Shown here: one piece after another, positions 1 to 35,564 of the stretch
Numbering within the stretch: the first letter of the stretch is position 1
Layout of the letters: each line of letters starts with the position of its first letter
Source of the DNA: an uncultured Oscillospiraceae bacterium
GTDB lineage: Bacteria; Bacillota; Clostridia; Oscillospirales; Oscillospiraceae
Length of the DNA: 36,906 bases
NCBI GenBank assembly: GCA_944385095.1
Contig: CALWVS010000021.1
Span: forward strand, 1-36,906
Direction of reading: 5' to 3'
Notes under the pieces: generated by a model
What the model saw: only the letters and a program-made list of their open reading frames with translations
What the model was told of the DNA's origin: nothing
Database searches by the model: none
Made by a program: the position numbers and the translations under genes

Positions 1-417
1 AACCTAATGCTCTTGGAAACCTCAACGCTGTTTCATTGAATGATGTCGGTGATGGCGACTCCTGAAGTTCTTTTTGCCTACTTTTTCTTTCAAGAAAAAG
101 TAGGAGAGCTCTGAGGCGACGTTTTCTTTGTTGTTTGTCTCTGCCACTTTTCCACCTAATGTTCTTGGAAACCTCAACTCTGTTCCATTGAATGATGTCA
201 GTGATGGCGACTCCTGAAGTTCTTTTTGCTTCCTTTTTCTTTCAAGAGAAAGGTTACACATCTCAGCAGTTTTTCAACCTAATGCTCTTGGAAACCTCAA
301 CGCTGTTTCATTGAATGATGTCGGTGATGGCGACTCCTGAAGTTCTTTTTGCTTCCTTTTTCTTTTAAGAAAAAGGAAGTCTTTTTGCCTACTTTTTCTT
401 TTTCAAGAAAAAGTAGG
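1..417. repeat. Hairpin-core repeat array 1
   Basis: Three tandem copies of a roughly 76-nt core (about 1-76, 154-229 and 276-351), each followed by a hairpin. Hairpins lie at 77-104 (13-bp arms CCTACTTTTTCTT, 2-nt gap), about 230-253 (decayed), 352-379 (variant arms CTTCCTTTTTCTT) and 388-417 (13-bp arms, 4-nt loop). The last hairpin ends at base 417, next to the TAA stop of the sensor kinase on the minus strand (418-420), so it can act as that operon's terminator. Cores 1 and 3 are nearly identical; core 2 differs at several bases. Short open frames here are repeat sequence, not genes. The array may continue left of the window. Confidence 0.9.
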
Positions 418-2448
418 TTAGGTGGCTTGTGGGACTGTGACAATGGCTTTGAACAAGTCTCCATCCACTACAAGCTGGAAGGTTCCACCCTGTAATTCTG
501 TCAAATTTTTTGCTATAGACAACCCTAAGCCGGAGCCTTCTGTTGTACGGGATTCTTCTCCCCGCACAAATCGCTCCATGAGCCGTTCCGGTGGAATGTT
601 CAGAGGCTCTCTGGAAATGTTTTTGATGGAGAGAGAAACACTCCCCTGTGCCCGCTCCACTTCAATATAGACCCGTGTTCCTTCCAAAGCATACTTGGAA
701 CAGTTTCCTAAAAGATTGTCAATTACACGCCATAGATGTCTGCCATCTGCATAGACATAGCTCTCCCCCTCTGGCAAGGTACAGACCACCTGCAACTGTT
801 TTGCCTGCAACTTCTCCTCATACTCACCCAATGCCTGGTCCAGTAGCTGCCCCATACCAATTCGCTCCCGATTGACTTTCAGTACACCAGTAGATGCTTT
901 GGATGCCTCCACCAAATCTTCTGTCAGTTTGCGCAGCCGCTGAGATTTCCGCTCCAATACCTCAATATATTCTAATGCTTTGGGGTCAGTCTGTTCTGTG
1001 GTTTTCAATAGATTCACATAGTTGATGATAGAAGTCAATGGTGTTTTCAGGTCATGAGACACATTGGTAATTAACTCCGCTTTGAATCGTTCACTTTTCA
1101 TTTTTTCATCCATTGCACAGGTGAGACCATTGGAAATGTTGTTGAGAATCTCCCCATGCCGCTTCAAATCAGCAGGAAGCCGCTCTGTTTCAATGCGATG
1201 GTTTAAATTGCCTGCTGCAATAATCTCTGCCCCTCTGCGCACCTTCCAAAATCCATATGCCCAGCGACACAGCAGCAACATCACCACCAAATTGAGACAG
1301 AGTCCCGGCACAGGGGCATATTCTGTCAGTGGGTACAGATAATCTACCATAAAAACGCAGGCAACATATCCGCAAAATCCCAAGATAACCTTCCAAATCA
1401 GGGGCAATCCCAAAAAGAAATCCCGTATGAGACGATAAATCCATCGAATCACACGTCCAATAAGAGAGTATTGTACCAGTGTTTTTGTTTTACAGCGTAC
1501 TGCCACTGTTCGTAAAAAGAGTGCCACAGAATACCCCCATCCTGTAACCAATGCCCCTGTACCGAGGCAAATACCAGTTAAAATCCCTCGTTGCATGTAG
1601 GAAATCATCTGCAATACCACCCCCTCATATTCCAGTATGATACTGACAATACAAATGCTCAAAACAAATAGCAGAAGCAACCAAAACTCCAGAAACACTC
1701 TGTCCTGCCAACCTGCCACCAATGTTCTGTTGTTCTCTGGCTGATAGCCTGCTCCCCACAAAAGATAGACCAGCAAAAGCAGTGCAATCCCCAGTGTCCC
1801 AAGAGATGCCACAACATATCCAGTAAACTGGTGCTGACAGCTTTCAAAAACCTGTTGCAAGGCAGAAAAATCATCATTGGCTGTCATCCATTCCGGTTTG
1901 ACCACACCATAACACAACACAAGCCCTTCTTCTGTCAGGTTGCTTTTGTCGGAAAATGCCATGGCTGGCTCCAGTCCAATGGCGTAGACTTCATCAGCCG
2001 AAATGACATAGGATTCCTGAATCAGAGCACTGTCTCCCTGTTCAAATGTGGCATAAAAAAGGGTTTGTACCTGTTCCTCAATGCCTCCTCCTACATTTTC
2101 TAGTACAACCTGACTGCCATCCCAATTCAAAAGCCGGAACCGGAAATTGGTGTTCTGCTGTTGCATCTCCTCTTGAATGCGGTTCATCTGGTTTTGGTAT
2201 CGCTGTTCTTCTACATAGCTCAAATCTTCCTGTTCCAACTTGATCATGCAGTTTGTATACTCAATCAATCTGTTTTCATGCTCTTTGATAAGAAGATAAA
2301 AGGCTTCTGTATCCTCTATGGAATTCAGATTCACATAGGGCAGGGCAATCAGTGTTTGACAGCCATAAAACGCAGAGGTGAACAGGGCAACCAGAAACAA
2401 AATCCAGCCTGCAAAACGCAGGGAGAGGCTCTCCTGCAACCGGTGCAT
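418..2448 (-). CDS. Membrane sensor histidine kinase
   Basis: Two-component sensor kinase of 676 aa that would autophosphorylate and pass phosphate to the response regulator encoded just upstream. A first membrane segment lies at about 12-35, followed by an extracytoplasmic region of about 170 residues, then further hydrophobic segments at about 211-231, 252-272, 284-310, 352-370 and 380-396. This is more membrane than a typical two-TM kinase. The H-box NVSHDLKTPLTSI places the phospho-accepting His near 465, the N-box DNLLGNCSKYA is at about 577-587, and the G-box EGSGLGLSIAKNL is near 637-649, so the catalytic core looks intact. Its ATG directly follows the regulator's TAA, with GGAGGGG inside the regulator's end as ribosome binding site. 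The signal is unknown. Confidence 0.93.
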   Translation of the reverse strand: MHRLQESLSLRFAGWILFLVALFTSAFYGCQTLIALPYVNLNSIEDTEAFYLLIKEHENRLIEYTNCMIKLEQEDLSYVEEQRYQNQMNRIQEEMQQQNTNFRFRLLNWDGSQVVLENVGGGIEEQVQTLFYATFEQGDSALIQESYVISADEVYAIGLEPAMAFSDKSNLTEEGLVLCYGVVKPEWMTANDDFSALQQVFESCQHQFTGYVVASLGTLGIALLLLVYLLWGAGYQPENNRTLVAGWQDRVFLEFWLLLLFVLSICIVSIILEYEGVVLQMISYMQRGILTGICLGTGALVTGWGYSVALFLRTVAVRCKTKTLVQYSLIGRVIRWIYRLIRDFFLGLPLIWKVILGFCGYVACVFMVDYLYPLTEYAPVPGLCLNLVVMLLLCRWAYGFWKVRRGAEIIAAGNLNHRIETERLPADLKRHGEILNNISNGLTCAMDEKMKSERFKAELITNVSHDLKTPLTSIINYVNLLKTTEQTDPKALEYIEVLERKSQRLRKLTEDLVEASKASTGVLKVNRERIGMGQLLDQALGEYEEKLQAKQLQVVCTLPEGESYVYADGRHLWRVIDNLLGNCSKYALEGTRVYIEVERAQGSVSLSIKNISREPLNIPPERLMERFVRGEESRTTEGSGLGLSIAKNLTELQGGTFQLVVDGDLFKAIVTVPQAT

Positions 2449-3144
2449 TTAAACCCCTCCTTTCTCCATTTTGTAACCCAGCCCCCAGACTACTTTCAGA
2501 TAACGGGGGTCCGCTGGGTTAATTTCAATTTTCTCACGAAGATGGCGAATATGTACTGCCACTGTATTTTCAGAACCATAGGCGGGGTCATTCCACACCT
2601 GCTCATAAATCTGTGCAGAGGAGAATACCTGCCCAGGATGGGTCATCAGCAACTTGAGAATGTTGTACTCAATGGGCGTCAGTGCCACAGGGTCTCCATC
2701 CACTGTGACCTGTTTGGCACTGTCATCCATGGAAATGGGTCCTACTGTCAATAGCCCTGGCTCCTTGTCCATGCCACCCAACGCTGTATATCGACGCAGT
2801 TGACTTTTCACCCTTGCCACCACTTCCAGTGGATTGAATGGCTTTGTGATATAGTCATCCGCTCCAATGTTCAGTCCCAGAATTTTGTCTGTATCTTCAC
2901 TTTTGGCAGTGAGAAGAATGATGGGAATATTCGTCTCCTCCCGCAGCTTTGCTGTTGCCCGAATGCCGTCCAGTTCCGGCATCATAATATCCATTAAAAT
3001 TAAATCTGGCTTGTGCTCCTGTACTTTTTCAATGGCTTCTTTGCCGTGGTACGCTTTGATGGTCTGATACCCCTCACTGGTCAGGTAGATATCCAATGCA
3101 GACACAATATCCTGGTCGTCGTCGCAAATCAGAATGGTATACAT
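2449..3144 (-). CDS. OmpR/PhoB-family response regulator
   Basis: DNA-binding response regulator of 231 aa. The receiver domain (about 1-120) has the acidic pocket DDD at 8-10, phospho-acceptor Asp52 in LMDIMMPELDG and the conserved Lys in LLTAKSED. The winged-helix domain (about 130-228) carries the family's LTPIEYNILKLL and VAVHIRHLREKI motifs. It is the first gene of a two-gene operon with the kinase, with no gap between stop and start. A possible promoter is on the minus strand at 3183-3210. The neighbouring glycosylation cassette is divergent, so regulation of it is possible but unproven. Confidence 0.95.
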   Translation of the reverse strand: MYTILICDDDQDIVSALDIYLTSEGYQTIKAYHGKEAIEKVQEHKPDLILMDIMMPELDGIRATAKLREETNIPIILLTAKSEDTDKILGLNIGADDYITKPFNPLEVVARVKSQLRRYTALGGMDKEPGLLTVGPISMDDSAKQVTVDGDPVALTPIEYNILKLLMTHPGQVFSSAQIYEQVWNDPAYGSENTVAVHIRHLREKIEINPADPRYLKVVWGLGYKMEKGGV

Positions 3145-3182
3145 ATTCTCTCATCCTTTCTGCTCAATTTCTGTCTGATTCT

Positions 3183-3210
3183 AGGATAACACACAGAATT
3201 TAAGATGCAA
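3183..3210 (-). promoter_or_regulatory. Putative promoter of the two-component operon
   Basis: On the minus strand, TTGCAT (3205-3210) and TATCCT (3183-3188) are separated by 16 bp, about 40 bp upstream of the regulator ATG. The match to the vegetative consensus is moderate. Confidence 0.4.
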
Positions 3211-3307
3211 GAGGGAATTTCTTAAAAATAGATGAAGCATTTTCCTGTTTTTGGCACTTTTCGACTTTCCACAGGGGCTGTGGAAAAAGGAATCTCCTCT
3301 TTCCTGC

Positions 3308-3336
3308 GTGACTTTTCTGGTATTTTATGCTACAAT
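3308..3336 (+). promoter_or_regulatory. Putative promoter of the glycosylation cassette
   Basis: GTGACT (3308-3313), 17-bp spacer, TACAAT (3331-3336). It lies 38 bp before the first cassette gene. Confidence 0.5.
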
Positions 3337-3374
3337 AGCTTGATTTGATTTTTCTTTGGAAAGGAGACCATTCC

Positions 3375-4976: not shown

Positions 4977-4980
4977 TCCC

Positions 4981-10008: not shown

Positions 10009-10037
10009 TTGTATTTTTGTTGGTTTTATGGTATAAT
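10009..10037 (+). promoter_or_regulatory. Promoter of the AIM24-family gene
   Basis: TTGTAT (10009-10014), 17-bp spacer, TATAAT (10032-10037). AAGGAGG follows at 10074-10080. Confidence 0.7.
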
Positions 10038-10089
10038 GCACACCAGCCCTATCTTATATTTGAATATCTCTACAAGGAGGCTGGTTGAG

Positions 10090-10863
10090 ATGTACGCAAT
10101 CCGAAATTTTACAGACAATGATGATGTGAAGGTTCTTTCTGAACGTGGAGCATTTCAGGTGATTGAATATCAGAAAGACTTGAGTGTAGCACCTTCCAAT
10201 GCCATAAAGGCCTACTACAGTGCTCAGATGAATGTGAGAAAACGTCAGTTGGTCTGTCAGCTGAGCAAATCTCCTGTGACCATTCAGGCTGGGGCTATGC
10301 AGTGGATGCTGGGCAATGTCAATGCCACAACCGGTATCAAAGGTGTGGGTGACTTCTTTGGCAAGGCAGTTCGGGGCAAAGCCAGTGGAGAATCTGCCAT
10401 TAAACCAGAATACACCGGTGATGGTGTACTGGTGTTAGAGCCTACTTACAAGCATCTGATTCTGTTGGATGTTTCAGAGTGGGGCGGTTCCATTGTACTG
10501 GATGATGGGCTGTTCTTGGCATGTGAAAGCAATTTAAAACACAAGATTGTGACACGCTCCAATGCTTCCTCCGCTTTTGCTGGTGGAGAAGGTCTGTTTA
10601 ATCTAAGTTTGAATGGCAATGGGATTGTCTGTGTAGAGTCTGAATGCCCCATGGAAGAACTGGTGGAAATTACATTAGAAAATGATGTCTTGAAAATTGA
10701 CGGAAACTTTGCCATTGCATGGAGTGGCAGTCTGGAATTTACTGTGGAACGCTCTGGCAAAACGCTGCTTGGTTCTGCTGCCTCCGGTGAGGGTCTTGTG
10801 AATGTATACCGTGGCACAGGTAAGGTTCTGATGATGCCTGTTGCAAATGTCCCCAAATCCTAA
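10090..10863 (+). CDS. AIM24-family protein
   Basis: Predicted all-beta protein of 257 aa that matches the AIM24/TIGR00266 family in layout: QLSKSPVTIQAGAMQWM in the first third, then GVLVLEPTYKHLILLD, GEGLFNLSLNGNGIVCV and a C-terminal SGEGLVNVYRGTGKVLMMP. Bacterial members have no firmly established function. The start at 10090 is chosen because AAGGAGG precedes it by 9 nt; a longer frame from 10009 begins in the promoter. No signal peptide is visible. Its TAA (10861-10863) abuts the first hairpin of repeat array 2. Confidence 0.85.
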   Translation: MYAIRNFTDNDDVKVLSERGAFQVIEYQKDLSVAPSNAIKAYYSAQMNVRKRQLVCQLSKSPVTIQAGAMQWMLGNVNATTGIKGVGDFFGKAVRGKASGESAIKPEYTGDGVLVLEPTYKHLILLDVSEWGGSIVLDDGLFLACESNLKHKIVTRSNASSAFAGGEGLFNLSLNGNGIVCVESECPMEELVEITLENDVLKIDGNFAIAWSGSLEFTVERSGKTLLGSAASGEGLVNVYRGTGKVLMMPVANVPKS

Positions 10864-11111
10864 CCTACTTTTTCTTGAAAAGAAAAAGTAGGCAAAAAGA
10901 ACTTCAGGTGTAGCCATCACCGACACAGTTCAATGGAACAGCGTCGAGGTTTCCAAGAACTTTGGGTTGAAAAGTCGCTAAGACCCCTACTTTTTCTTGA
11001 AAAGAAAAAGTAGGCAAAAAGAACTTTGGGTGCAGCCATCACCGACATTTTTTGAGGAAACAACATTGAGGTTTCCAAGAGCATTGGGTGGAAATATCAT
11101 AAAAATCAGTA

Positions 11112-11156
11112 AGAGAGTAGCTATCATGAGAAAATTTCTCATAACAGCTACTCTCT
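11112..11156. repeat. Internal palindrome, copy 1
   Basis: Inverted repeat with outer arms AGAGAGTAGCT and AGCTACTCTCT and inner arms ATGAGAAA/TTTCTCAT. It is followed by TGTTTTAAAAATAT and appears only in the long units of array 2. It could act as an extra terminator. Confidence 0.8.
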
Positions 11157-11502
11157 CTGTTTTAAAAATATAAAGTAGAAAAGCCGCTGTGACTGACCAC
11201 AAGGGAAATATCGCCTCAGAGCCCTCCTGAAATTTTCTTTGCCTACTTTCTTTTTTAAAAGAAAGTAGGTGTAGCCATCACCGACACAGTTCAATGGAAC
11301 AGCGTCGAGGTTTCCAAGAATATTGGGTTGAAAAGTCGCTAAGAGTACCTAAAAAGGAATGGCTACCTCAGAACACTTACAAAATTTTCTTTGCCTACTT
11401 TCTTTTTTAAAAGAAAGTAGGTGTAGCCATCACCGACATTTTTTGAGGAAACAACATTGAAGTTTCCAAGAGCATTGGGTGGAAATATCATAAAAATCAG
11501 TA

Positions 11503-11547
11503 AGAGAGTAGCTATCATGAGAAAATTTCTCATAACAGCTACTCTCT
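11503..11547. repeat. Internal palindrome, copy 2
   Basis: Second copy of the same palindrome, 391 bp after the first and identical in both arms. Confidence 0.8.
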
Positions 11548-11964
11548 CTGTTTTAAAAATATAAAGTAGAAAAGCCGCTGTGACTGACCACAAGGGAAAT
11601 ATCGCCTCAGAGCCCTCCTGAAATTTTCTTTGCCTACCTTCTTTTTTAAAAGAAAGTAGGTGTAGCCATCACTGACACAGTTCAATGGAACAGCGTTGAG
11701 ATTTCCAAGAACTTTGGGTTGAAAAGTCGCTAAGAGTACCTAAAGAGGAATTGCTGCCTCTGAGACCTTACAAAATTTTCTTTGCCTACTTTCTTTTTTA
11801 AAAGAAAGTAGGTGTAGCCATCACTGACACAGTTCAATGGAACAGCGTCGAGGTTTCCAAGAATATTGGGTTGAAAAGTCGCTAAGAGTACCTAAAGAGG
11901 AATTGCTGCCTCTGAGACCTCTTAAAATTTTCTTTGCCTACTTTCTTTTTTAAAAGAAAGTAGG

Positions 11965-13071
11965 TTAAGAGAGGAGGTCGGTCCACAGGTCATTGTAGAG
12001 GGTGCGGATTTCCAGTGGGCTGACCAGATAGGACTCACAGTTCTCCAGAACGTCGCTGGGGGCTGCCATAATCTCATACAGTTCCATATCCAGTGGTTCC
12101 CCATAAGTCTCCTCATAGTAGGTGGGGTACTGCTCCAGTGCCTCAGTGTTGGGAGAAGCGTACCAGATGTAGTCCATGTTCTTCAAGGATACCTCTGTGG
12201 ATGCCATAAAGTTAATCCATGCCTCTGCTTCGTCCTTGTTCTGTGCATCTTTTAGTACACACATGGCATCTACAAAGTAGTTGGCTCCCTCCTCTGGCAC
12301 CACATACTTCAAATCAGGGTTGTTTTCCAGCATGGTCAGGTAGTCACCGGCATAGTAGGCACCAATGGCAGCATTGCCGCCTTCCAGCTTCTGGAATACC
12401 TCATCCATCACAAATCCCTGATAGACACCAGCTTCCTTTGCCTCTGCCAGCTTCTCATATGCCTCCTGAATTTCTGCCTCATTGGTGGTATTGAGGGAGT
12501 AACCCAAATCCAGCAGAGCAATGCCAATGGCATCACGGGAGTTTTTAATCATCAGCACATCGCCGGCATATTGGGGGTCAAACATGGCGTCCCAGCTAGT
12601 AATGGGTTCTGATACCATGGCAGAATTATAAATCAGCCCCAAAGTGCCCCAGGTATAGGGAACAGTATACTTGTTGTCTGGGTCAAAGGAGAGATTTTTG
12701 AACCGCTCATCAATCAGGGCATAGTTGGGGATGTTGTCATAGTTCAGTTCTGCCAGCTTGCCTTCCTCAATGAGTTGAGAAATCATATAGTCAGAGGGGC
12801 AAATCACATCATAGTTCGTCCCCTGTAACTTGGAGTACAGTGCCTCATTGCTCTCTGCGGTGGTGTAGTTGACGGTAATGCCAGTCTCTGCCTCAAACTG
12901 GTCAATGAGAGAGGGATCAATGTACTCGCCCCAGCTGCACACATTCACCACACGGTTTCCTCCGGTCTGTACCGCAGACTGAGACCCTTCTGGTACTTCT
13001 TCCATTGCACAGCTGGAGAGCAATCCCAGTGCAAGTGCAGAAGTGAAAGCCAATACAATTTGTTTTTTCAA
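11965..13071 (-). CDS. potD: Spermidine/putrescine ABC transporter substrate-binding lipoprotein
   Basis: Extracellular binding lipoprotein of 368 aa. The signal peptide ends in a lipobox LLSSC with Cys21 as the lipidated residue. Family features include VNVCSWGEYIDPSLIDQFEAE at the N-terminal lobe, YDVICPSDYMI, and YTVPYTWGTLGLIYN. It delivers polyamines to the PotBC permease. The start codon is TTG, set by AGGAGG 8 nt upstream (13080-13085). It is the last gene of potABCD, 15 nt after potC, and its TAA directly touches the final hairpin of repeat array 2. Confidence 0.94.
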   Translation of the reverse strand: MKKQIVLAFTSALALGLLSSCAMEEVPEGSQSAVQTGGNRVVNVCSWGEYIDPSLIDQFEAETGITVNYTTAESNEALYSKLQGTNYDVICPSDYMISQLIEEGKLAELNYDNIPNYALIDERFKNLSFDPDNKYTVPYTWGTLGLIYNSAMVSEPITSWDAMFDPQYAGDVLMIKNSRDAIGIALLDLGYSLNTTNEAEIQEAYEKLAEAKEAGVYQGFVMDEVFQKLEGGNAAIGAYYAGDYLTMLENNPDLKYVVPEEGANYFVDAMCVLKDAQNKDEAEAWINFMASTEVSLKNMDYIWYASPNTEALEQYPTYYEETYGEPLDMELYEIMAAPSDVLENCESYLVSPLEIRTLYNDLWTDLLS

Positions 13072-18104: not shown

Positions 18105-18330
18105 TGTAAGCACTGTGAACGGAAAAGTAACAGAACATCCAAAGAACAGAGAGGGCTTCTCACCGGCTGAAAGGAAGCCTGCGGCGGCGTTGTGTGAAGT
18201 GCGTCCGGGAGTGTGGAGGGTAATGCCTCCCGTATGGGTCACGTTATCGACCTGACAAGTGAGAAATGAGAGTGGAACCGCGATGTTTTATCGCCTCTTA
18301 TGCCGCATGGACGGGATAAGGGGTTTTTCT
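18105..18330 (+). promoter_or_regulatory. T-box leader, cysteine-type
   Basis: tRNA-sensing riboswitch in the leader of cysE-cysS. The conserved T-box TGGAACCGCG is at 18273-18282, and AGAGAG plus GCTGAAAG-type stem I elements lie near 18150-18172. A TGC at 18200-18202 is a candidate Cys specifier codon, which fits the downstream genes. The terminator stem is CCTCTTATGCCG (18294-18305) with CGGGATAAGGGG (18312-18323), then a T-run; the T-box pairs in the alternative antiterminator. Uncharged tRNA-Cys should allow read-through. Confidence 0.92.
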
Positions 18331-18373: not shown

Positions 18374-19045
18374 ATGTTTCAGTATTTGAATGAGACGCTG
18401 GAGGCATACCAGCGTCGTGACCCGGCTGCCAGAAGCAAGCTGGAGATTTTTCTGCTCTATCAGGGGGTACATGCCACCCTGTACCACCGGTTGGCTCACT
18501 GGCTCTATGAGAGAAAGCATTTCTTTCTGGCCCGTTTTGTCTCCCAGTGGAACCGATTCTGGACGGGGATTGAAATCCATCCCGGTGCCAAAATTGGGCG
18601 TCGTTTTGTCATTGACCACGGCATGGGAATTGTCATTGGTGAAACTGCGGAAATTGGGGATGACTGCCTGCTTTATCATGGTGTTACATTAGGAGGCACC
18701 GGAAAAGACCACGGCAAACGCCACCCCACCATTGGCAATAATGTACTCATTGGCTGTGGTGCCAAAATTCTGGGACCCTTTAAAGTGGGCGATGGGGCCC
18801 GTATTGCTGCCAACTCGGTTGTGCTGTCTGAAGTGCCAGAACAGGCAACCGCTGTGGGCATTCCTGCCCAGATTGTACGCATTGCCGGAAAGGCAACCCA
18901 TTTTGCCGATGATGTGGACCAGACCAGCGTGGAAAACCCCACTTTGGAGCGCATCAATGCCCTGTCGGAACGCCTTGATTTCATTGAAAGATTGTTAGAT
19001 GAACAGTACCGCCGTGGGGATTTTCCAAAACCCACATCCAAATAA
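18374..19045 (+). CDS. cysE: Serine O-acetyltransferase
   Basis: Acetyltransferase of 223 aa that makes O-acetylserine from serine and acetyl-CoA, the first step of cysteine synthesis. The short N-terminal helical domain includes [10 protein letters not shown]. The left-handed beta-helix has [41 protein letters not shown] and [15 protein letters not shown], with the active-site His in DHG. The C-terminal helical tail is longer than the minimum. GGAGGG (18361-18366) precedes the ATG. It is under the Cys T-box with cysS. Confidence 0.95.
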
Positions 19046-19067
19046 AACAAAAGAATGAGGTATGATT

Positions 19068-20513
19068 ATGCTGCTTTATAACTCAGCCACCCATAAAAAA
19101 GAGGAATTCAAAACCCACACACCCAATCATGTGGAGATGTACACCTGTGGTCCCACTGTGTATCACTTTGCCCACATTGGAAACCTGCGCTCCTATATTA
19201 TGGAGGATGTGCTGGAAAAGTATTTGCGGTTTGCCGGCTACGATGTGAACCGTGTCATGAACATCACCGATGTGGGGCACCTGTCCTCTGATGCTGACAC
19301 CGGCGAGGATAAAATGCTCAAAGGGGCAAAGCGGGAACACAAGACCGTCATGGAAATTGCAAAGTTCTATACTGACGCCTTTTTCAGCGACTGCCAGAAA
19401 CTGAACATCAAACGCCCTGATGTGGTGGAGCCTGCCACCAACTGCATCAATGAATATATTACCATTGTCTCTGGTCTGCTGGACAAGGGCTACGCCTATC
19501 TGGCTGGCGGCAATGTGTACTTTGATACCTCCAAGCTGGACCGCTACTATGTATTCAATGACCACAATGAGGACGATTTGGCTGTGGGTGTTCGGGAAGG
19601 CGTGGAGGAGGACACCAACAAGAAAAACCGCAACGATTTCGTGTTGTGGTTCACCAAGTCCAAATTTGAGGATCAGGCACTGAAATGGGATTCCCCTTGG
19701 GGTGTGGGCTATCCCGGCTGGCACATTGAGTGCTCCGGTATTTCTTTAAAGTATAATGGGGAATATCTGGACCTCCACTGTGGCGGCATTGATAACGCAT
19801 TCCCCCACCACACCAATGAGATTGCCCAGTCTGAATCTTATCTGGGTCATGCCTGGTGCCCCCAGTGGTTCCATGTACACCATCTGAACACCAACAGCGG
19901 CAAGATGTCCAAGTCCAAAGGGGAGTTTTTGACCGTCTCCCTGCTGGAAGAAAAAGGCTATGACCCCCTTGCCTATCGCTTCTTCTGTCTCCAATCCCAC
20001 TACCGCAAAGGGCTTGTATTCTCCTGGGAGAATCTGGACAACGCTGTAGTAGCCTATCAGAAGCTGATTGCCAAAATTGCCACCCTGACAGAAGAAGGCG
20101 AGGTAGATGAGGCAGTCAAACAAAAATACCATGAAACCTTCCTGCAACAGGTGGGCAATGACTTAAATACCTCTATGGCGGTTACACTCATCTATGATGT
20201 GCTGAAAGCCAAAACCACACCTGCCACCAAGCTGGCTGTCATTGGAGAGTTTGATTCTGTATTGTCCCTCTCCCTGTTGGAAAAGGCGGCTGAAAAGCGC
20301 AAAGAACTGGTTGCGCAGCAGCAGGCACAGGCTCAAAAGGGCTATACCATCCATGGTGAAGGGGATGATGCCATTGATGCTCTGGTGCTTCAGCGAGCCC
20401 AAGCAAAGAAGGCAAAGAACTTTGCAGAAGCTGACCGCATCCGTGACGAACTGAAGGCACAGGGCATTGAAGTGACAGATGTTCCAAATGGTGCCGTTTG
20501 GAAGCGGATTTGA
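19068..20513 (+). CDS. cysS: Cysteine--tRNA ligase
   Basis: Class I synthetase of 481 aa that charges tRNA-Cys. It has the Zn-binding start CGPTVYHFAHIGN (HIGH-type motif HIGN), the further Zn ligands in WHIECSGIS and HHTNEIAQSE, and KMSKSKGEF as the KMSKS loop. The C-terminal DALR-like region ends in FAEADRIRDEL. I prefer the ATG at 19068 to the one at 19062, because the ribosome binding site AATGAGG (19054-19060) is 7 nt from it and only 1 nt from the earlier ATG. It is 22 nt after cysE. Confidence 0.96.
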   Translation: MLLYNSATHKKEEFKTHTPNHVEMYTCGPTVYHFAHIGNLRSYIMEDVLEKYLRFAGYDVNRVMNITDVGHLSSDADTGEDKMLKGAKREHKTVMEIAKFYTDAFFSDCQKLNIKRPDVVEPATNCINEYITIVSGLLDKGYAYLAGGNVYFDTSKLDRYYVFNDHNEDDLAVGVREGVEEDTNKKNRNDFVLWFTKSKFEDQALKWDSPWGVGYPGWHIECSGISLKYNGEYLDLHCGGIDNAFPHHTNEIAQSESYLGHAWCPQWFHVHHLNTNSGKMSKSKGEFLTVSLLEEKGYDPLAYRFFCLQSHYRKGLVFSWENLDNAVVAYQKLIAKIATLTEEGEVDEAVKQKYHETFLQQVGNDLNTSMAVTLIYDVLKAKTTPATKLAVIGEFDSVLSLSLLEKAAEKRKELVAQQQAQAQKGYTIHGEGDDAIDALVLQRAQAKKAKNFAEADRIRDELKAQGIEVTDVPNGAVWKRI

Positions 20514-20542
20514 TTGACAAATTTTCACCATTGTGGTATAGT
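20514..20542 (+). promoter_or_regulatory. Promoter of the rubrerythrin gene
   Basis: TTGACA (20514-20519), 17-bp spacer, TATAGT (20537-20542). The -35 begins at the base after the cysS stop. Confidence 0.8.
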
Positions 20543-20600
20543 GTAAACACCTTAGTGGGAATGATTCTTTTTAACAAAAGAAGGAAAGCGAGGAGCTACT

Positions 20601-21137
20601 ATGCCAGAATTAAAAGGAAGTAAGACCGAACAAAACCTTTGGACTGCGTTTGCAGGAGAATCTCAGGCACGCAATAAATACACCTATTTTGCATCCAAGG
20701 CAAAAAAGGATGGCTATGTACAAATCTCCAAAATTTTTGAGGAGACTGCTGCCAACGAAAAGGAACACGCTGAAATCTGGTTCAAGCTGCTGGGCGGCAT
20801 TGGAACCACAGAGGAAAATCTGGCTTCTGCTGCCGCTGGTGAGAACTACGAGTGGACAGACATGTATGCCACCATGGCAAAAGAGGCAAAGGAGGAGGGC
20901 TTTGACCACATCGCTTTCCTGTTTTCTGAAGTTGCCAAAATTGAGAAGGAGCATGAGGAGCGTTACCGCAAACTCCTTGCCAATGTGGAGGGCGGTCTGG
21001 TGTTCTCCCGTGATGGGGATATGATTTGGCAGTGCAGCAACTGCGGTCACATCCATGTGGGCAAGGCTGCCCCTGAGGTGTGCCCTGTCTGTGCCCATCC
21101 CAAGGACTACTTCCAGCTGAAGGCTGAAAATTATTAA
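20601..21137 (+). CDS. rbr: Rubrerythrin
   Basis: Peroxide-detoxifying di-iron protein of 178 aa. The four-helix ferritin-like domain has the Glu and ExxH ligands in [23 protein letters not shown] and [13 protein letters not shown]. The C-terminal rubredoxin-like domain has [10 protein letters not shown] and [11 protein letters not shown] as the two CxxC iron ligands. It protects anaerobes from H2O2 using electrons from rubredoxin or NADH. It is monocistronic, with its own strong promoter and terminator. Confidence 0.96.
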
Positions 21138-21316: not shown

Positions 21317-21952
21317 GTGTTTTCCCTGTTGACACCCAAGCGGTGTCTGATGGCATTTGGCGGCAGTACCATTTTGGCGTTTGGTCTTTACAACATCCAC
21401 GCACTGTCCGGCGTGACGGAAGGCGGTATTTTGGGTATGACCTTACTGCTGCACCACTGGTTCCACCTGTCCCCTGCCCTTTCCGGGCTTGTGATGAATG
21501 TTCTGTGCTATCTGATTGGCTGGAAGCTGTTGGGGAAGGAATTTATTGCCTACTCCATTGTGGCTGGTGGTGGATTTTCCCTGATGTATGGAATATTTGA
21601 GCAGTTTCCACCCCTGTGGCCGGAACTTGCCACCCAACCTCTGTTGGCTGCCTTTCTGGGGGCCCTGTTTGTTGGGGTCGGTATTGGGCTTAGTGTACGG
21701 GCTGGCGGAGCACCGGGGGGCGACGATGCCCTTGCCATGAGTGTCTGTGCCCTCACTGGCTGGAAGATTCAATGGGCATACCTTGCCAGTGATTTGATTG
21801 TGCTTGCCCTGTCTGCTACCTATATCAACTGGGAACAGTTGGGCTGTTCCCTGCTGACCGTGATGCTGTCCGGGCAGTTGATTGGACTGGTACAGAGAGC
21901 AGGGCAACCAAAGTCATCTCTGGACGATGGTCAGGAAATAGAAGAAATCTGA
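21317..21952 (+). CDS. YitT-like (DUF161) membrane protein
   Basis: Membrane protein of 211 aa with five to six predicted helices. It has the family-like ALSGVTEGGILGMTLLLHHW near the N-terminus and RAGGAPGGDDALAMSV in the centre, resembling the YitT/DUF161 group. The function of these proteins is not established. The start is GTG, set by AAAGGAG about 9 nt before. No C-terminal DUF2179 domain is present, so it is shorter than the common 280-residue form. Confidence 0.75.
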   Translation: MFSLLTPKRCLMAFGGSTILAFGLYNIHALSGVTEGGILGMTLLLHHWFHLSPALSGLVMNVLCYLIGWKLLGKEFIAYSIVAGGGFSLMYGIFEQFPPLWPELATQPLLAAFLGALFVGVGIGLSVRAGGAPGGDDALAMSVCALTGWKIQWAYLASDLIVLALSATYINWEQLGCSLLTVMLSGQLIGLVQRAGQPKSSLDDGQEIEEI

Positions 21953-21968: not shown

Positions 21969-22002
21969 AACTGGGGCAGTGGTATTTTCCGTTGCCCCAG
22001 TT
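21969..22002 (+). terminator. Terminator after the YitT-like gene
   Basis: AACTGGGGCA (21969-21978) pairs with TGCCCCAGTT (21993-22002). The right arm overlaps by 3 nt the first hairpin of array 3 (22000-22029), so the two structures compete at their border. Confidence 0.75.
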
Positions 22003-22819
22003 ACTTTCTTTTGAAAAAAAGAAAGTAACCAAAGAAAATTTCAGGAGGTCTCTGAAGTAACATTTCCTTTGCTGCCAGTCTCAGCGGCTTTTCTACCCTA
22101 TATTCTTGAAAATCTCAATGTTGTTCTTTCCATAAACCTCGGGGATGGCTACTCCCACTTTCTTTTAAAAAAGAAAGTAGGCAAAGAAAATTTTATAGTT
22201 GCTCTTTTGGATTGCTTCCCTATTTTGGTACACTCTGCCTCTTAATTGCCTTTTGCTCTTGGAAACCTCAATGTTGTTCTCTCCATAAATCTCGGGGATG
22301 GCTACTCCCACTTTCTTTTAAAAAAGAAAGTAGGCAAAGAAAATTTCAGGAGGGCTCTGAGGCAGTATTTCCTTTGTTGTCAGTCTCAGCGGCTTTTCTA
22401 CCCTATATTCTTGAAAACCTCAATGTTGTTCTCTCCATAAATCTCGGGGATGGCTACTCCTACTTTCTTTTAAAAAAGAAAGTAGGCAAAGAAAATTTTA
22501 TAGTAGCTCTTTTGGGCTGCTTTCCTATTTGGTCCTCCCTGCCTCTGAATTGCCACCACCCAATGCTCTTGGAAACCTCAATGTTGTTCTCTCCATAAAC
22601 CTCGGTGATGGCTACTCCCACTTTCTTTTAAAAAAGAAAGTAGGCAAAGAAAATTTTATAGTAGCTCTTTTGGGCTGCTTTCCTATTTGGTCCTCCCTGC
22701 CTCTGAATTGCCACCACCCAATGCTCTTGGAAACCTCAATGTTGTTCTCTCCATAAACCTCGGTGATGGCTACTCCCAAAGTTCTTTTTGCCTACTTTTT
22801 CTTTCAAGAAAAAGTATGG
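22000..22819. repeat. Hairpin-core repeat array 3
   Basis: Six hairpins: 22000-22029 (arms GTTACTTTCTTT), 22154-22181, 22307-22334, 22459-22486, 22617-22644 and 22791-22819. Spacing is 153, 152, 158 and 174 bp after the second. Most have CCACTTTCTTTT or CTACTTTCTTTT arms; the last is the CCTACTTTTTCTT type with a one-base insertion in its right arm. The core (CTCTTGGAAACCTCAATG then CGGTGATGGCTACTCCC) is in the same orientation as in arrays 1 and 4. The array lies between two genes reading the same way and ends 45 bp before yqfC. Open frames here are repeat sequence. Confidence 0.92.
22487..22778. repeat. Perfect tandem copies in array 3
   Basis: Bases 22487-22620 recur at 22645-22778 with a period of 158 bp and no difference that I can find, so the duplication is recent. 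Confidence 0.9.
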
Positions 22820-29000: not shown

Positions 29001-29005
29001 ATAGG

Positions 29006-29348: not shown

Positions 29349-30395
29349 TCAGTATGTATAATAGAAGGTGTCCAGACTGCGGCATCCCTCGAATGCACCT
29401 CTGCCAATTTTGTGTATATGGCTGGGAATCTGGATGTTTGTCAGGCGACTGCATCCCAAAAACGCACCCTGCCCGATGGATGTCACACTGTCTGGCAGGG
29501 TGACGCTGGTTAAACTGCTGCACTCTGCAAAGGCATCATCCCCAATCCATGGCACACCGTCCGGAATGGTGATCTGTTCCAGACAGCTGCAACCGGAAAA
29601 CACACTGGTTCCCATCCATGTGACGCTGTCGGGAAGGGTAATGAATTGGAGACTGGTACAATCGGAAAACGCACCTGTTCGGATGGATGTGACACTGTCG
29701 GGCAGGGTGACCTCTTCCAGACTGCTGCACTCACTGAACACCCAAACCTCCAGCCGTGGCACACCCTCTGGAATGGTGATGCATGCAAGACTGCTGCAAC
29801 CCAAAAACGCCCGCTCCCCAATGGCGGTTACACTGTTTGGGAGGGCAATGTGTTTCAGGCTGCTGCACCCTGAAAATGCGCTGTCCCCGATGGAGCAAAC
29901 TCCCTCTGGAAGGGTGATGCGTGCAAGGCTGCTGCAATCATAAAATACTTCACGTTCCACGGTGCTCACACGGTTGGGGAGGGCGATGCAGCTGAGACTG
30001 CTGCAATAAGAAAACGCCTGACGTTCGATGGAGGTGATGCTGTCTGGAAGGCTGAGATCCGTGAGACTGGTACACCATGCAAATACTCCCTGTCTGAGGA
30101 CAGTCATGCCATGGGGGATGGTGATGTGGGTCAAACTGGTACACCCGAAAAACGCCTCCTCCCCAATGGAGAGAACACTGTCTGGGATGGTGATGTGCAC
30201 CAGTTCACTGCACCCGAGAAATGCCTGACGCCCAATGGACGTGACACTGTTTGGGATGATAACGTCGGTCAGGCTGGTACACTGAAAAAACGCCCGCTCC
30301 CCAATGGCAGTTACATGGTCTGGAATGACCAGTTTTGTAACATCTTCCCCAAAGTATTCTTTCAAAACTCCTTGCTCAATGGTCCATTTGCTCAT
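29349..30395 (-). CDS. BspA-type leucine-rich repeat protein
   Basis: Protein of 348 aa made almost wholly of 14 repeats of 23 residues, pattern xxIxLPDSVTSIGxxAFxxCSSL, the BspA/LRR_5 type. A short N-cap of about 18 residues precedes them. Such proteins often bind surfaces or other proteins, but this one has no signal peptide and no membrane or wall anchor, so it may be cytoplasmic. Repeats 4, 6 and 9 lack the central Gly. The DNA of the repeats (69-nt period) is strongly conserved, indicating recent internal duplication. An AAAGGAG ribosome binding site precedes the ATG. Function is unknown. Confidence 0.88.
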   Translation of the reverse strand: MSKWTIEQGVLKEYFGEDVTKLVIPDHVTAIGERAFFQCTSLTDVIIPNSVTSIGRQAFLGCSELVHITIPDSVLSIGEEAFFGCTSLTHITIPHGMTVLRQGVFAWCTSLTDLSLPDSITSIERQAFSYCSSLSCIALPNRVSTVEREVFYDCSSLARITLPEGVCSIGDSAFSGCSSLKHIALPNSVTAIGERAFLGCSSLACITIPEGVPRLEVWVFSECSSLEEVTLPDSVTSIRTGAFSDCTSLQFITLPDSVTWMGTSVFSGCSCLEQITIPDGVPWIGDDAFAECSSLTSVTLPDSVTSIGQGAFLGCSRLTNIQIPSHIHKIGRGAFEGCRSLDTFYYTY

Positions 30396-30472
30396 CGTTT
30401 ACCACTCCTTTGTCATATCGGTCTGATTGGAGTCACAGGATCTCCCAAATTGAACACGGATGTTCTGTGAAA

Positions 30473-31153: not shown

Positions 31154-31512
31154 CCTTTTTTCCTCCGTTTCATCCAAATCATACACCCCTGTACTGTCCA
31201 TGCTGTGACCAGATACACCAGAGGGGTGGTAACACCTGCCACCACCAGCAGGGCAACTGCCTGCTGTTTCATCAGCTCCGCATATTCCAAAGTACCAACA
31301 AATGGTGGGATAAAGAAAAATGCCATATTCACCATCATTAATTCGGTTGCTTTTTGCAGATACCGCTCCTTCACCACGCCAGTGAGCAACAGCACCATCA
31401 GCAATACCATGGCAATCACACTGGCAGGAAACGCCACCGGCAGCAGGGCTGCAATCCCCTCCCCCACCAGGCACACACCAAAAATCAGGGCTAATTCACC
31501 CATCACATTCAT
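31150..31512 (-). CDS. lrgA: LrgA/CidA-family holin-like protein
   Basis: Membrane protein of 120 aa with four predicted helices and the family-like FPASVIAMVLLMVLL and MAFFFIPPFVG. It pairs with LrgB, to which its stop is coupled by ATGA. The start at 31512 follows AAGGAGG by 10 nt. The region just upstream is a terminator of the decarboxylase gene, leaving no space for an ordinary promoter. Confidence 0.92.
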   Translation of the reverse strand: MNVMGELALIFGVCLVGEGIAALLPVAFPASVIAMVLLMVLLLTGVVKERYLQKATELMMVNMAFFFIPPFVGTLEYAELMKQQAVALLVVAGVTTPLVYLVTAWTVQGCMIWMKRRKKG

Positions 31513-31535
31513 ATCTGAACTTCCTCCTTTGCAAA

Positions 31536-31566
31536 TAAAAAATGCACCAGCATTACACTGGTGCAT
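31536..31566 (-). terminator. Terminator or attenuator between the decarboxylase gene and lrgA
   Basis: On the minus strand ATGCACCAG (complement of 31558-31566) pairs with CTGGTGCAT (complement of 31542-31550), then TTTTTTATTTG. The lrgA ribosome binding site begins within about 10 nt. Confidence 0.85.
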
Positions 31567-31578
31567 GGGGATAATACA

Positions 31579-32838: not shown

Positions 32839-32885
32839 GTTGTATCGCTCCTTTTCGCTTGGTGGTTTTTCGCCATAATATCCAT

Positions 32886-32914
32886 AGTTTATCCAGTTTT
32901 CCCTTCAAAGTCAA
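32886..32914 (-). promoter_or_regulatory. Promoter of the decarboxylase gene
   Basis: Minus-strand TTGACT (32909-32914), 17-bp spacer, TAAACT (32886-32891). Confidence 0.7.
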
Positions 32915-32986
32915 CACACACAACGCACAAGGCTTTCTAAAATCACAGATAAATTTTGATGATTTTGAAAAAATCACAAAATCTTC

Positions 32987-33015
32987 TTGCACTTTTCTGG
33001 GGTATCTGGTACAAT
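32987..33015 (+). promoter_or_regulatory. Promoter of the uracil permease gene
   Basis: TTGCAC (32987-32992), 17-bp spacer, TACAAT (33010-33015). The transcript would carry a leader of nearly 120 nt. Confidence 0.7.
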
Positions 33016-33021
33016 AAGCCG

Positions 33022-33113
33022 AATGTTTGGGCGGGAGCCTGTCTAAACTTGTATATGGATCTGGTTCTCCCATCCAAAGACAATCACCAGCGTGATTGTC
33101 TTTTTTCACGAAA
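33022..33113 (+). promoter_or_regulatory. Attenuator leader of the uracil permease gene
   Basis: The leader ends in a terminator hairpin, AGACAATCA (33075-33085 region), loop, TGATTGTCT and a run of T, about 30 nt before the ATG. An upstream GGGAGCC/GGTTCTCCC pairing is possible, and TGTCT at 33040-33044 could pair with AGACA of the terminator's left arm. This suggests conditional termination. It is not a match to a riboswitch or PyrR site that I recognise. Confidence 0.55.
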
Positions 33114-33139
33114 GAGTATTGGAAAGGGGTTTTCTGTAT

Positions 33140-34516
33140 ATGAATGAAAACAAAGGCATTTATGATGCCAGAAGTTTGGGTACTTCCAAAATGATGATTT
33201 TGGGTATCCAGCACATGTTTGCCATGTTTGGTGCCACAGTACTGGTGCCCACACTGACAGGATTGTCTGTGTCTGCCACACTGTTATTTGCAGGGCTTGG
33301 CACACTGCTGTTTCATTTTCTCACCAAAAAGATGGTGCCCGCTTTTCTTGGTTCCTCCTTTGCCTTCATCGGTGGCTATCAAGCCATTGCCCCTATGATT
33401 GCCGATGGGGATGGCACCCTCACTGCCAACACACAGCTATTACCCTATGCCTGTTTTGGTGTGGCTCTTGCTGGTCTTTTATATGTGGTTCTCTCTGCCC
33501 TTTTTAAAGTATTTGGCACCAAAAAAGTCATGCGCTTTTTCCCACCCATTGTGACCGGTCCCATTATCATCTGCATTGGGTTGACCCTCTCCTCCTCTGC
33601 CATTACCAGTTGCCGTGCCAACTGGTTCATTGCACTGGTTGCCATTGGCATTGTGGTGGGCTGCAACATCTGGGGCAAAGGCATGATTAAAATCATTCCC
33701 ATTCTTCTGGGTGTGGTGGGTTCCTATGCTGTGGCTGCCCTGTGCCACATGGCTGGTATGAACACAATGGACCCAGTAAAATTGCAGGAGCTTGCCAACG
33801 CCCCTTGGATTGGTCTGCCCTTTGCCTATGAAAATACTCTCTTTGGGCTGTTCAGCCGCCCAGATTTGGACCGTGGACTGCTGCTCACCTCCGCTGTTAC
33901 CATTATGCCCCTTGCCCTTGCCACTATGGTGGAGCATATTGGAGATATGTGTGCCATTTCCTCCACCTGTGAACGCAACTATCTGGAAAATCCGGGCTTC
34001 CACCGCACACTGTTGGGAGATGGTCTTGCCACCTCTCTTGCCTCTCTCTTTGGCGCACCTGCCAACACAACCTACGGCGAAAATACAGGCGTGCTGGCTC
34101 TCTCCAAGGTCTATGACCCCCGTGTGATTCGCATTGCTGCCTGTCTTGCCATTGTGTTCTCCTTCTCTCCTAAATTTGCCGCTCTGGTGGGTGCCATGCC
34201 CACAGCTACCATGGGTGGTGTGTCCATGGTACTATACGGCATGATTTCCGCCGTGGGTGTGCGCAATGTGGTGGAAAATCAGGTCAATTTTTCCAACAGT
34301 CGCAATGTGATTATTGCTGCCCTCATCATGGTGCTTGCCATTGGTGTCAACTACTCCGGTCCTGTGAGTTTTCAGGTTGGCACTGCTACCATCAGCCTGT
34401 CTGGTCTGGCTGTGTCTGCTATTGTGGGCATTGTCCTCAATGCCATCCTGCCCGGTCAGGACTATGAGTTTGGCACAGGTTCTCAGGGTGACACCTCTGT
34501 CAACTTCAAAGTGTAA
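33140..34516 (+). CDS. uraA: Uracil permease (NCS2 family)
   Basis: Nucleobase:cation symporter of 458 aa with about 12 to 14 helices. Family motifs are GIQHMFAMFGATVLVP in the first helix, FAFIGGYQAI, VVGCNIWGKG, TMVEHIGDMCAIS with the substrate-binding Glu, and APANTTYGENTGVLALSKV typical of uracil-type NCS2 proteins. A xanthine-type transporter is less likely because of the YGEN motif. The start at 33140 is after GGAAAGGGG; a longer frame from 33092 begins in the terminator. Confidence 0.93.
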   Translation: MNENKGIYDARSLGTSKMMILGIQHMFAMFGATVLVPTLTGLSVSATLLFAGLGTLLFHFLTKKMVPAFLGSSFAFIGGYQAIAPMIADGDGTLTANTQLLPYACFGVALAGLLYVVLSALFKVFGTKKVMRFFPPIVTGPIIICIGLTLSSSAITSCRANWFIALVAIGIVVGCNIWGKGMIKIIPILLGVVGSYAVAALCHMAGMNTMDPVKLQELANAPWIGLPFAYENTLFGLFSRPDLDRGLLLTSAVTIMPLALATMVEHIGDMCAISSTCERNYLENPGFHRTLLGDGLATSLASLFGAPANTTYGENTGVLALSKVYDPRVIRIAACLAIVFSFSPKFAALVGAMPTATMGGVSMVLYGMISAVGVRNVVENQVNFSNSRNVIIAALIMVLAIGVNYSGPVSFQVGTATISLSGLAVSAIVGIVLNAILPGQDYEFGTGSQGDTSVNFKV

Positions 34517-34560
34517 GGATTGTCATTTCCTAAGATTCTGTGAAGATGCCATATTCCTGC

Positions 34561-34589
34561 TTGCAGATTTCCAAAAAATAAGGTAAAAT
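34561..34589 (+). promoter_or_regulatory. Promoter of the small helical protein gene
   Basis: TTGCAG (34561-34566), 17-bp spacer, TAAAAT (34584-34589). Confidence 0.65.
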
Positions 34590-34633
34590 GGAGACACCAC
34601 ACGGGATACCCGTATTTAAAGGAGGCAACTATC

Positions 34634-35038
34634 ATGGGATTTTTTGATAATTTGAAGGAAACTGCCGATACCCTGAAGGAAAAGGCAACCGACCTGGCCC
34701 AGAGTGGTGTGGCTACCTCCAAACGCCTTGCAGAAATTGCAAAGCTGAAAACTGCCAATATGGCAGAGGAGGATACCATCAAAAAGGCATACATTGAACT
34801 GGGCAAGCTGTACTATGCAGAGCATGGTGCCACCCCTGAGGGTGCCTATGCTGCCGCCTGTGAGAAGATTACTGCTTCCAAGGCGACCATTGAAGCCAAC
34901 AACGACCGTATTGCTGAGTTGAAGTCTGCCGCTGAGGCTGCCGGTGAAGTGGTGGCAGAAGTCACTCCCAGTTCTGTGGAAGATGTGGCTGACAATGAAG
35001 CAACTGAGGCTGACATTGAGCCAGAAGAAAAGAAATAA
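34634..35038 (+). CDS. Small helical protein of unknown function
   Basis: Protein of 134 aa, not recognised. It begins MGFFDNLKETADTLKEKATD, an amphipathic helix, and continues with Ala-, Lys- and Glu-rich helices that could form coiled coils (about 1-100). The central KKAYIELGKLYYAEHG is shared with many small clostridial zinc-ribbon proteins, but no Cys pair is present apart from a single Cys. The acidic tail is low in complexity. AAAGGAGG precedes the ATG. Its TAA (35036-35038) abuts the first hairpin of array 4. Confidence 0.8.
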   Translation: MGFFDNLKETADTLKEKATDLAQSGVATSKRLAEIAKLKTANMAEEDTIKKAYIELGKLYYAEHGATPEGAYAAACEKITASKATIEANNDRIAELKSAAEAAGEVVAEVTPSSVEDVADNEATEADIEPEEKK

Positions 35039-35564
35039 CCTACTTTCTTTTGAAAAAAGAAAGTAGGCAAAGAAAATTTCAGGAGGGCTCTGAGGCTACT
35101 CTTTTGAAAAGGAACCAATGCTCCACTCTGTAAGAGCATTTTTGAAAGTCTTTTAGGGTAGTTTTTCACTCCGAAAAACTACCCTCTTTCTTTCAAACAA
35201 GAAAGTGGGTAGAGAAAATTTCAGAAGGGCTCTCAGGCTACATGTCCTTTGCTGGCACTCTCAGCGACTTTTCTACCCAATGCTCTTGGATAGTTGAGTA
35301 TTGTTCTATTGAATTATGTCGGTGATGGCTACACTCAAAATTCTTTTTGCCTACTTTTTCTTTTAAGAAAAAGTAGGGGGCTTTGAAGCAATCATTCCTT
35401 TGTTGGCAATCTCAGCCACTTATCCACCCAATGTTCTTGGAAAGCTCAGCTTTGTTCCATTGGAACATGTCGGTGATGGCTACACACGAAGTTCTTTTTG
35501 CTTCCTTTTTCTTTCAAGAAAAAGGAAGTCTTTTTGCATACTTTTTCTTTTCAGAAAAAGCAAG
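35039..35564. repeat. Hairpin-core repeat array 4
   Basis: Hairpins at 35039-35067 (CCTACTTTCTTT arms), 35155-35185 (a different stem, AGGGTAGTTTTTC), 35186-35205 (decayed), 35350-35377 (CCTACTTTTTCTT arms, perfect), 35501-35528 (CTTCCTTTTTCTT arms, perfect) and 35538-35564 (decayed). Two cores are recognisable at about 35276-35349 and 35426-35500, in the orientation of arrays 1 and 3. It fills the gap between two convergent genes. The first hairpin begins at the base after a TAA stop. Confidence 0.9.

Follow-up and report, generated by a model that had tools for sequence, protein, structure and literature searches.

In telomerase-type, SAM-II and ENE/MALAT1 RNA triplexes, a pyrimidine strand occupies the major groove of a stem rich in A-U pairs, beside a pseudoknot or loop. 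Among the dispersed repeats of bacteria, repetitive extragenic palindromes (REPs), as set out in PMC3733652, are palindromes that occur in pairs of opposite orientation, lie behind genes or between convergent or unidirectional genes, and carry an unpaired GTAG or CGTC tag at one end. Miniature inverted-repeat transposable elements (MITEs) and the enterobacterial RU-1 and RU-2 elements (listed in PMC2759123) are nonautonomous intergenic elements of 100 to 500 bp with inverted ends. Here we analyze a 36,906-nt stretch of DNA from an uncultured Oscillospiraceae bacterium (contig CALWVS010000021.1; the whole stretch is called the window), in which one repeat family forms four intergenic arrays. 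Our preferred reading, to which we assign a probability of about 0.6, is that this family is a REP/MITE-like, nonautonomous intergenic repeat, the functional part of which would be a module of 36 to 38 nt, each single strand of which could form a three-stranded hairpin.

The module comprises a hairpin of ∼13 bp, a 1-nt linker and a purine tail that mirrors the purine strand of the stem. Read from its bare side, it runs from a 5-nt foot through a pyrimidine tract of 7 to 8 nt, a loop of 2 to 6 nt, the purine arm, the complementary foot and the linker to the purine tail; the linker is one pyrimidine, which is C, or T in a decayed copy at 35182. Complementing the left arm base by base, without reversing it, gives the tail, such that the tract TTTCTTTT goes with the tail AAAGAAAA (left-type modules) and TTTTTCTT with AAAAAGAA (right-type modules). 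A preliminary description of the window had proposed a single hairpin unit of inverted repeat, core and spacer. Its inverted repeats were borne out (19 perfect repeats of 10 to 13 bp lie within the four arrays), but the single hairpin resolves into these two kinds, which face in opposite directions, and the mirror-image purine tail, which is part of the hairpin and its main feature, had been overlooked. The tail is present on 18 of the 19 perfect inverted repeats, the exception being at 35155–35185. That search was blind to the tail, and 18/19 is therefore the fair count, because the scan that yielded the 21 modules listed below demanded a tail (with at most one mismatch) and skipped a decayed hairpin near 231–256. 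When two window modules were folded on both strands, none of 200 dinucleotide shuffles was as stable (z scores of −5.1 to −5.8).

Duplication, inversion and slippage yield no mirror repeats, whereas a third strand obeying the Hoogsteen code would, and the tails have, at the level of sequence, the mirror symmetry with the purine strand that this code prescribes. To count hairpins over all loci read, we took those with a different arm, loop, feet or tail as distinct, whatever their locus. Perfect mirrors make up 78 of the 114 distinct purine-tailed hairpins. Among the 89 of these with asymmetric arms, 58 have a perfect mirror, none has a direct repeat and 31 have neither; the asymmetric tracts thus rule out a direct-repeat origin of the tail, a question on which the symmetric tract TTTCTTT is uninformative. 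For 13-nt tails on all stems, 100 of 136 are perfect, as against a mean of 39 and a maximum of 54 in 5,000 shuffles; this distinct-hairpin count supersedes an earlier tally by arm, tail and locus together (125/161 perfect, with a maximum of 66 in 2,000 shuffles). An exact scan for the three commonest asymmetric tracts gave mirror-to-direct ratios of 64:2 for TTTCTTTT, 47:2 for TTTTTCTT and 9:0 for TTTTCTT. The tail also tracks the arm at a single border, that of a putative cdsA gene, where four genomes have TTTCTTT with AAAGAAA and two have TTTCTTTT with AAAGAAAA. In loci L114 and L127, TTTCTC/AAAGAA becomes TTTCCC/AAAGGA, a five-base mirror, and the next 22 bases are common to both. As far as covariation can tell, the mirror tail is the signature of a base triplex.

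A second helix comes from more distant bacteria. On plasmids, the module was detected in Ilyobacter (Fusobacteriota) and in Caballeronia, Paraburkholderia, Burkholderia, Variovorax, Chitinibacter, Pasteurella, Aeromonas and Pseudoalteromonas. In these copies from Fusobacteriota and Proteobacteria, the loop measures 6 to 8 nt and its 3′ half is complementary to the bases behind the tail, the pairs being GCTGC/GCAGC, GCGGC/GCCGC, GCCGC/GCGGC, TCGCC/GGCGA, TGGCC/GGCCA, CTTGAT/ATCAAG and TGTA/TACA; two relatives within the genus have GCGAT/ATCGC. For 17 copies chosen by hand (14 from named plasmids, one from a viral contig and two from genus relatives), a loop–tail helix of at least 4 bp forms in 15, or in 10 of 12 distinct copies, whereas 20,000 shuffles gave a mean of 1.3 and a maximum of 7. 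Copies from Burkholderia cenocepacia, which share the Burkholderia cepacia form, and further Caballeronia copies, which pair well, stood outside this test; in a wider list the helix reaches at least 4 bp in 19 of 22 rows. Genome G463, from a different family of the phylum, contributes one copy, picked up with a pattern that left these positions free; its mirror extends to 9 nt, and GCGGT faces ACCGC. These compensating changes show a loop–tail pairing that would make the module, mainly in other phyla, an H-type pseudoknot. Covariation between sequences shows the hairpin, the mirror-tail rule and the loop–tail helix of other phyla. Two Caballeronia plasmids carry the modules as inverted pairs 475 to 500 bp apart, and nine such elements account for 18 of the 23 copies found. 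A collection of viral contigs gave 24 half-module matches, among which only L175 showed a full palindrome by eye and the rest resembled A-rich chance matches; in the phage collection, none of 14 matching records reached 80% query coverage.

The resemblance to REPs and to the bacterial interspersed mosaic elements (BIMEs) of the GTAG and CGTC superfamilies is real: the modules are short dispersed palindromes, set in pairs of opposite orientation and mostly behind genes. In differing from them, the module has an A/T-rich stem, a mirror third strand and, in other phyla, the loop–tail helix, and in place of an unpaired tetranucleotide tag it has feet that are paired and variable (CCT/AGG, CTT/AAG, GTT/AAC and others). 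It could nevertheless be argued that these are ordinary REPs or BIMEs of the kind mobilized by REP-associated tyrosine transposases (RAYTs), in a new sequence, and that the mirror tail is a by-product of A-rich DNA; the palindromes of ∼28 bp, the oppositely oriented pairs and a location relative to genes like that given for REPs in PMC3733652 would fit. Already weakened, this explanation appears quite improbable to us, given that the unpaired GTAG/CGTC tag is absent, that the genome of the window has no RAYT, that asymmetric tracts lead to mirrors and not to direct repeats, which low complexity does not explain, and that loop and tail covary in other phyla. PF01797 (Y1_Tnp/RAYT) had no match in this genome and had matches in 5 of 14 control genomes; other transposase families were not searched. 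Because the design recurs, completed into a pseudoknot, between genes of distant bacteria, the repeat would be more than an ordinary palindromic one.

As to MITEs and RU elements, the likeness lies in short, noncoding intergenic elements that bear left- and right-type modules as terminal inverted repeats, and the difference in the ends, which fit self-folding triplex hairpins and not plain terminal inverted repeats. A parent element was not seen, nor could a target duplication be made out by eye at the junctions read, where the empty sites are too diverged to align. The suggestion in the preliminary description that the repeat is REP- or MITE-like holds for its genomic behavior, in that copies are scattered, ends are inverted, arrays are tandem, the location is behind genes and presence varies between relatives, and fails for the REP tag and the RAYT. 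Compared with the telomerase-type, SAM-II and ENE/MALAT1 triplexes, the module differs in being a short, repeated, intergenic bacterial element with 7 to 9 contiguous putative triples and no poly(A) or ligand. The statement of the preliminary description that no named element with this structure is known stands, in that neither Rfam nor string searches of the literature returned a match. The sole match of the window above an Rfam gathering threshold is a tRNA, and under permissive settings a T-box leader and two weak matches appear as well, none in the arrays; the module itself is modeled by no family in Rfam. String and word searches of literature, with most subscription papers outside their coverage, found no description of it. 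The one family that comes close is RF02421 (Bp1_684, a candidate small RNA of Burkholderia), which matches the stem adjoining the module in copies from Burkholderia, with 118.8 bits in L222 and, short of its gathering score (44), with 35.2 bits in L164 and 29.1 bits in L224. Its overlap with the module is limited to roughly the first 11 bases, and it models neither the triplex hairpin nor the tail; this published RNA may be a fragment of a module-bearing repeat.

Many modules are positioned flush against the ends of predicted coding sequences, and some against tRNA or 5S ends. In the relatives (own and sister genomes and other phyla set aside, and orthologous sites counted separately), the gap between stop codon and hairpin foot is zero at 22 of 54 distinct sites; judged by their last codons, the 22 belong to ∼12 different genes, and three more sites overlap the stop codon by two bases. 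In the window's own genome, eight array ends are flush with stop codons, and in five of these the hairpin supplies the stop codon. The module touches the 3′ end of tRNA-Asp in L130 and the first base of tRNA-Lys in L053, L077 and L080, and further sites adjoin 5S rRNA or terminator-like stems. These statements on flush placement apply to the own genome and its relatives and do not extend to the distant phyla. Upstream of 5S genes, a version of the module, in many cases with the stem shortened, occurs in 14 of 32 readable leaders, 12 of them behind promoter-like sequence identified by eye, and here the transcribed strand is the pyrimidine-tail strand. We also noted that 5S genes that lack the module (for example, L258, L261 and L263) often have another conserved hairpin, TTTTAGTCAC TTCG GTGATTAAAA, just upstream, and that in L052, L054 and L069 the neighbor is a duplicated fragment of the tRNA-Asp 3′ end, lying between the real tRNA-Asp and the module and resembling an integration scar.

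Such positions raise the question of whether the modules are intrinsic terminators that have been amplified, as the preliminary description had suggested among its possibilities. Many copies do lie directly behind genes, with the eight array ends flush with stop codons, and some lie on the 3′ arm of a terminator-like stem. Neither module sequences nor folds, however, have the G+C-rich stem followed by a U-run of an intrinsic terminator: the stems are A/T-rich, no U-run comes after them, and several copies sit behind a separate G+C-rich terminator-like stem. Copies are also found in front of 5S and tRNA genes and between codirectional genes, and we regard this suggestion as unsupported and highly improbable.

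The module is widespread in its own genome (G000; 2.43 Mb in 59 contigs), which contains 39 exact left-type and 14 exact right-type modules. Sixteen further arrays were delimited there in 15 stretches (L031–L045), all with exact modules except the array of L033, which has a shorter type (TTTCTT/AAAGAA); five stretches picked for core-like words (L046–L050) had no array. Since at least seven contig ends fall inside arrays, the assembly probably misses copies. Across the genus, own genome included, the exact pattern was found in 15 of 64 genomes for the left type and in 10 of 64 for the right type, and reversed control patterns had no match in any genome of two 64-genome scans, so that the repeat is not a product of chance. 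A sister genome (G072, contig C18) has array B of the window in common; at the left border of this array it carries an additional module, exactly 36 bp long, which separates the stop codon from the first hairpin. Comparison of the sequences shows that modules bound larger elements in inverted orientation and that one exact module of 36 bp differs between the sister genomes. At the putative cdsA border (62 genomes with a match), the element is present in 6 of 30 loci read; by protein identity, two of the six carriers (71 to 72%) are farther from the other four than are several empty relatives (74 to 86%). Between the putative cdsA and the next gene, and between putative parA and parB, whole elements start at the stop codon and reach almost to the following ribosome-binding region.

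These presence/absence data, together with the inverted ends, the exact module difference and the arrays, also fit the main rival, single-stranded DNA action at transposon ends. Here, the triplex hairpin would be the end of a DNA transposon read as a single strand, a putative binding site for an HUH-type or other recombinase provided in trans, and the element would insert beside a target that pairs with the 3-nt foot. Feet that vary yet remain complementary in 83 of 114 distinct hairpins agree with this, as does foot pairing that in some cases extends into the neighboring stop codon (TGAT with ATC); both sides of the foot have changed between the own and the sister genome at one border (CTT/AAG against GTT/AAC), and mirror repeats permit a triplex on either DNA strand, which would make orientation irrelevant. 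On the other hand, the own genome is without a Y1_Tnp gene (the search was confined to this transposase family), no target sequence is shared by stop codons, tRNA ends, 5S genes and terminator-like stems, foot complementarity could stem from correction between the arms of a palindrome, and the 5S leader copies appear to be inherited and transcribed. We consider the transposon-end explanation possible but rather unlikely. The statement of the preliminary description that a transposase is lacking was tested in two ways only, and agrees with both: no protein of the own genome matches Y1_Tnp, and five of the seven proteins that flank the arrays belong to ordinary Pfam families (two had no match). 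No related autonomous element emerged at the border of array C, where the sister genome (L136/L137; G072:C18, ∼18400–20770) has a gene, absent from the window and possibly with a split frame, that looks radical-SAM-like by eye and not like a transposase.

Returning to the triplex-hairpin module as the core of a REP/MITE-like repeat, the proposed fold would have a 5-bp foot, a polypyrimidine–polypurine stem of 7 to 9 bp, a short loop and a 1-nt linker, with the tail running back along the stem as the third strand. On the pyrimidine-tail strand, the tail would lie parallel to the purine arm, the orientation of U·A-U and C+·G-C major-groove triplexes as in telomerase-type pseudoknots. We suggest that the triplex may act as a stiff cap that marks and protects RNA ends (or insulates neighboring genes), which could account for the retention of copies precisely at these borders. 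Spread would proceed by tandem duplication and by enzyme-driven transposition, and in the window the species would have multiplied the module into arrays behind genes, in which a core of ∼110 nt separates left- from right-type modules. Action in RNA seems to us a better guess than action in single-stranded DNA. In the other phyla, stem mismatches are of the G-U type on the pyrimidine-tail strand in 20 cases versus 1 (7 versus 1 when distinct), many of them from one Caballeronia form.

Several observations weigh against this interpretation. The module is rare, occurring in 2 of 398 genomes of the phylum (own genome included) and 15 of 64 of the genus, 24 of the 30 putative cdsA borders are without the element, and no mobilizing enzyme was found, the own-genome search being limited to Y1_Tnp. 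There is no perfect mirror in 31 of the 89 distinct asymmetric purine-tailed hairpins, purine tails were preselected before the mirror tests, and, because the copies are related and the tails are simple A/G runs, the shuffle tests overstate independence. The loop–tail helix is absent from the window's own copies (loops of 2 to 6 nt), and a good second helix is missing in B. cepacia, B. cenocepacia and one Paraburkholderia copy. Behind stop codons, it is the purine tail that lies on the sense strand, and not the pyrimidine tail favored by RNA triplexes, and in the own, sister and related genomes wobble mismatches show no strand preference (11 versus 11); these two findings make action in RNA a guess and not a result. 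More daring, and doubtful, is the idea of a new mobile class, in which a self-folding triple-helix pseudoknot of 36 to 45 nt would multiply as a unit and insert exactly at stop codons and at tRNA and 5S termini in at least three phyla. If the triplex is real, this would be a dispersed bacterial repeat with a triple helix as its conserved core, and one open to test by sequence alone, since its third strand covaries with the stem. Stem, mirror tail and loop complement supply a simple rule with which to search for further cases, the module offers a small, defined molecule for structural work, and the way in which copies abut stop codons and RNA ends could expose a new mechanism of insertion or at RNA ends.

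In the window, the four arrays of one family were confirmed at 1–417 (A), 10864–11964 (B), 22000–22819 (C) and 35039–35564 (D), and the earlier estimate that they make up nearly 8% of the window agrees with our count of 2,864 of 36,906 bases (7.76%). As left- and right-type modules face outward, the order within an array is left module, core, left module, core, right module. Cores number 16 by the GGTGATGGC half and 15 by the CTTGGAAACCTCAA half, the sixteenth, at 35285, having diverged; they are on the + strand in arrays A, C and D and on the − strand in array B. One example lies at 22726–22773 (+), and the others start at 12, 164, 287, 22105, 22258, 22410, 22568, 35285 and 35436 (+) and at 10957, 11079, 11318, 11470, 11709 and 11861 (−). 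The period of 152 to 158 bp proposed earlier applies to array C; elsewhere spacings of 122, 123, 151 and 239 also occur (152 and 123 in array A; 122, 152 and 239 in array B; 151 in array D). The 76-nt core was considered as the working part and set aside in favor of the module: 18 core copies align, but the RNAalifold consensus of this gappy alignment has no pairs. The suggestion of the preliminary description that the repeat may be a family of small RNAs thus gains no consensus fold from the core.

Array A (+), its left side cut by the contig start, has three cores and right-end hairpins. Its modules, all on the − strand, are at 68–104 (TTTTTCTT type), 343–379 (TTTTTCTT type, foot CTTCC) and 380–417, the outermost, which is flush with a stop codon, the TAA of a − strand gene at 418–2448 with histidine kinase domains. 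Array B (−) has six cores with five left-end (TTTCTTTT) and two right-end (TTTTTCTT) modules. The TTTTTCTT modules are at 10864–10901 and 10986–11023 (+), the former flush with the TAA of 10009–10863 (+, AIM24 family), and the TTTCTTTT modules are at 11233–11269, 11385–11421, 11624–11660 (one stem mismatch), 11776–11812 and 11928–11964 (−), the last flush with the TAA of 11965–13071 (−, a solute-binding protein). The spacing of 239 arises where a palindromic insert lengthens the unit; the same insert is found in two units, at ∼11094–11170 and 11485–11560, as a near-perfect palindrome (GAGAGTAGCT..AGCTACTCTC), a dyad nested in the array.

Array C (+) consists of five left-end modules, five cores and one right-end module, and its start lies on the 3′ arm of a terminator-like, G+C-rich stem that follows 21317–21952 (YitT family). 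The TTTCTTTT modules on the + strand are at 22000–22038 (foot GTTAC), 22154–22190, 22307–22343, 22459–22495 and 22617–22653, and the TTTTTCTT module at 22782–22818 (−) forms the right end; the feet of the second, third, fifth and right-end modules have one mismatch each. Array D (+) comprises two cores, three right-end modules and two left-end modules, of which one is good and the other decayed. The good TTTCTTTT module, at 35039–35076 (+), is flush with the TAA of 34634–35038, and the decayed one, at 35182–35217 (+), has mismatches in stem, foot and tail; the − strand modules are at 35341–35377 (TTTTTCTT type), 35492–35528 (TTTTTCTT type, foot CTTCC) and 35529–35564 (a decayed foot with two mismatches), and this end of the array is 2 nt from the TAG of 35567–35968 (−). 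The hairpin at 35155–35185 that lacks the mirror tail is a distinct one of 13 bp, AGGGTAGTTTTT..AAAAACTACCCT.

Two further features of the window lie outside the arrays. The T-box leader-like match is at 18106–18301 and scores 74.1 bits, below the Rfam gathering score of 93. Within a − strand open frame at 29349–30395, 69-bp tandem repeats extend over 29545–30307, a pattern that we take to be typical of leucine-rich repeat proteins.

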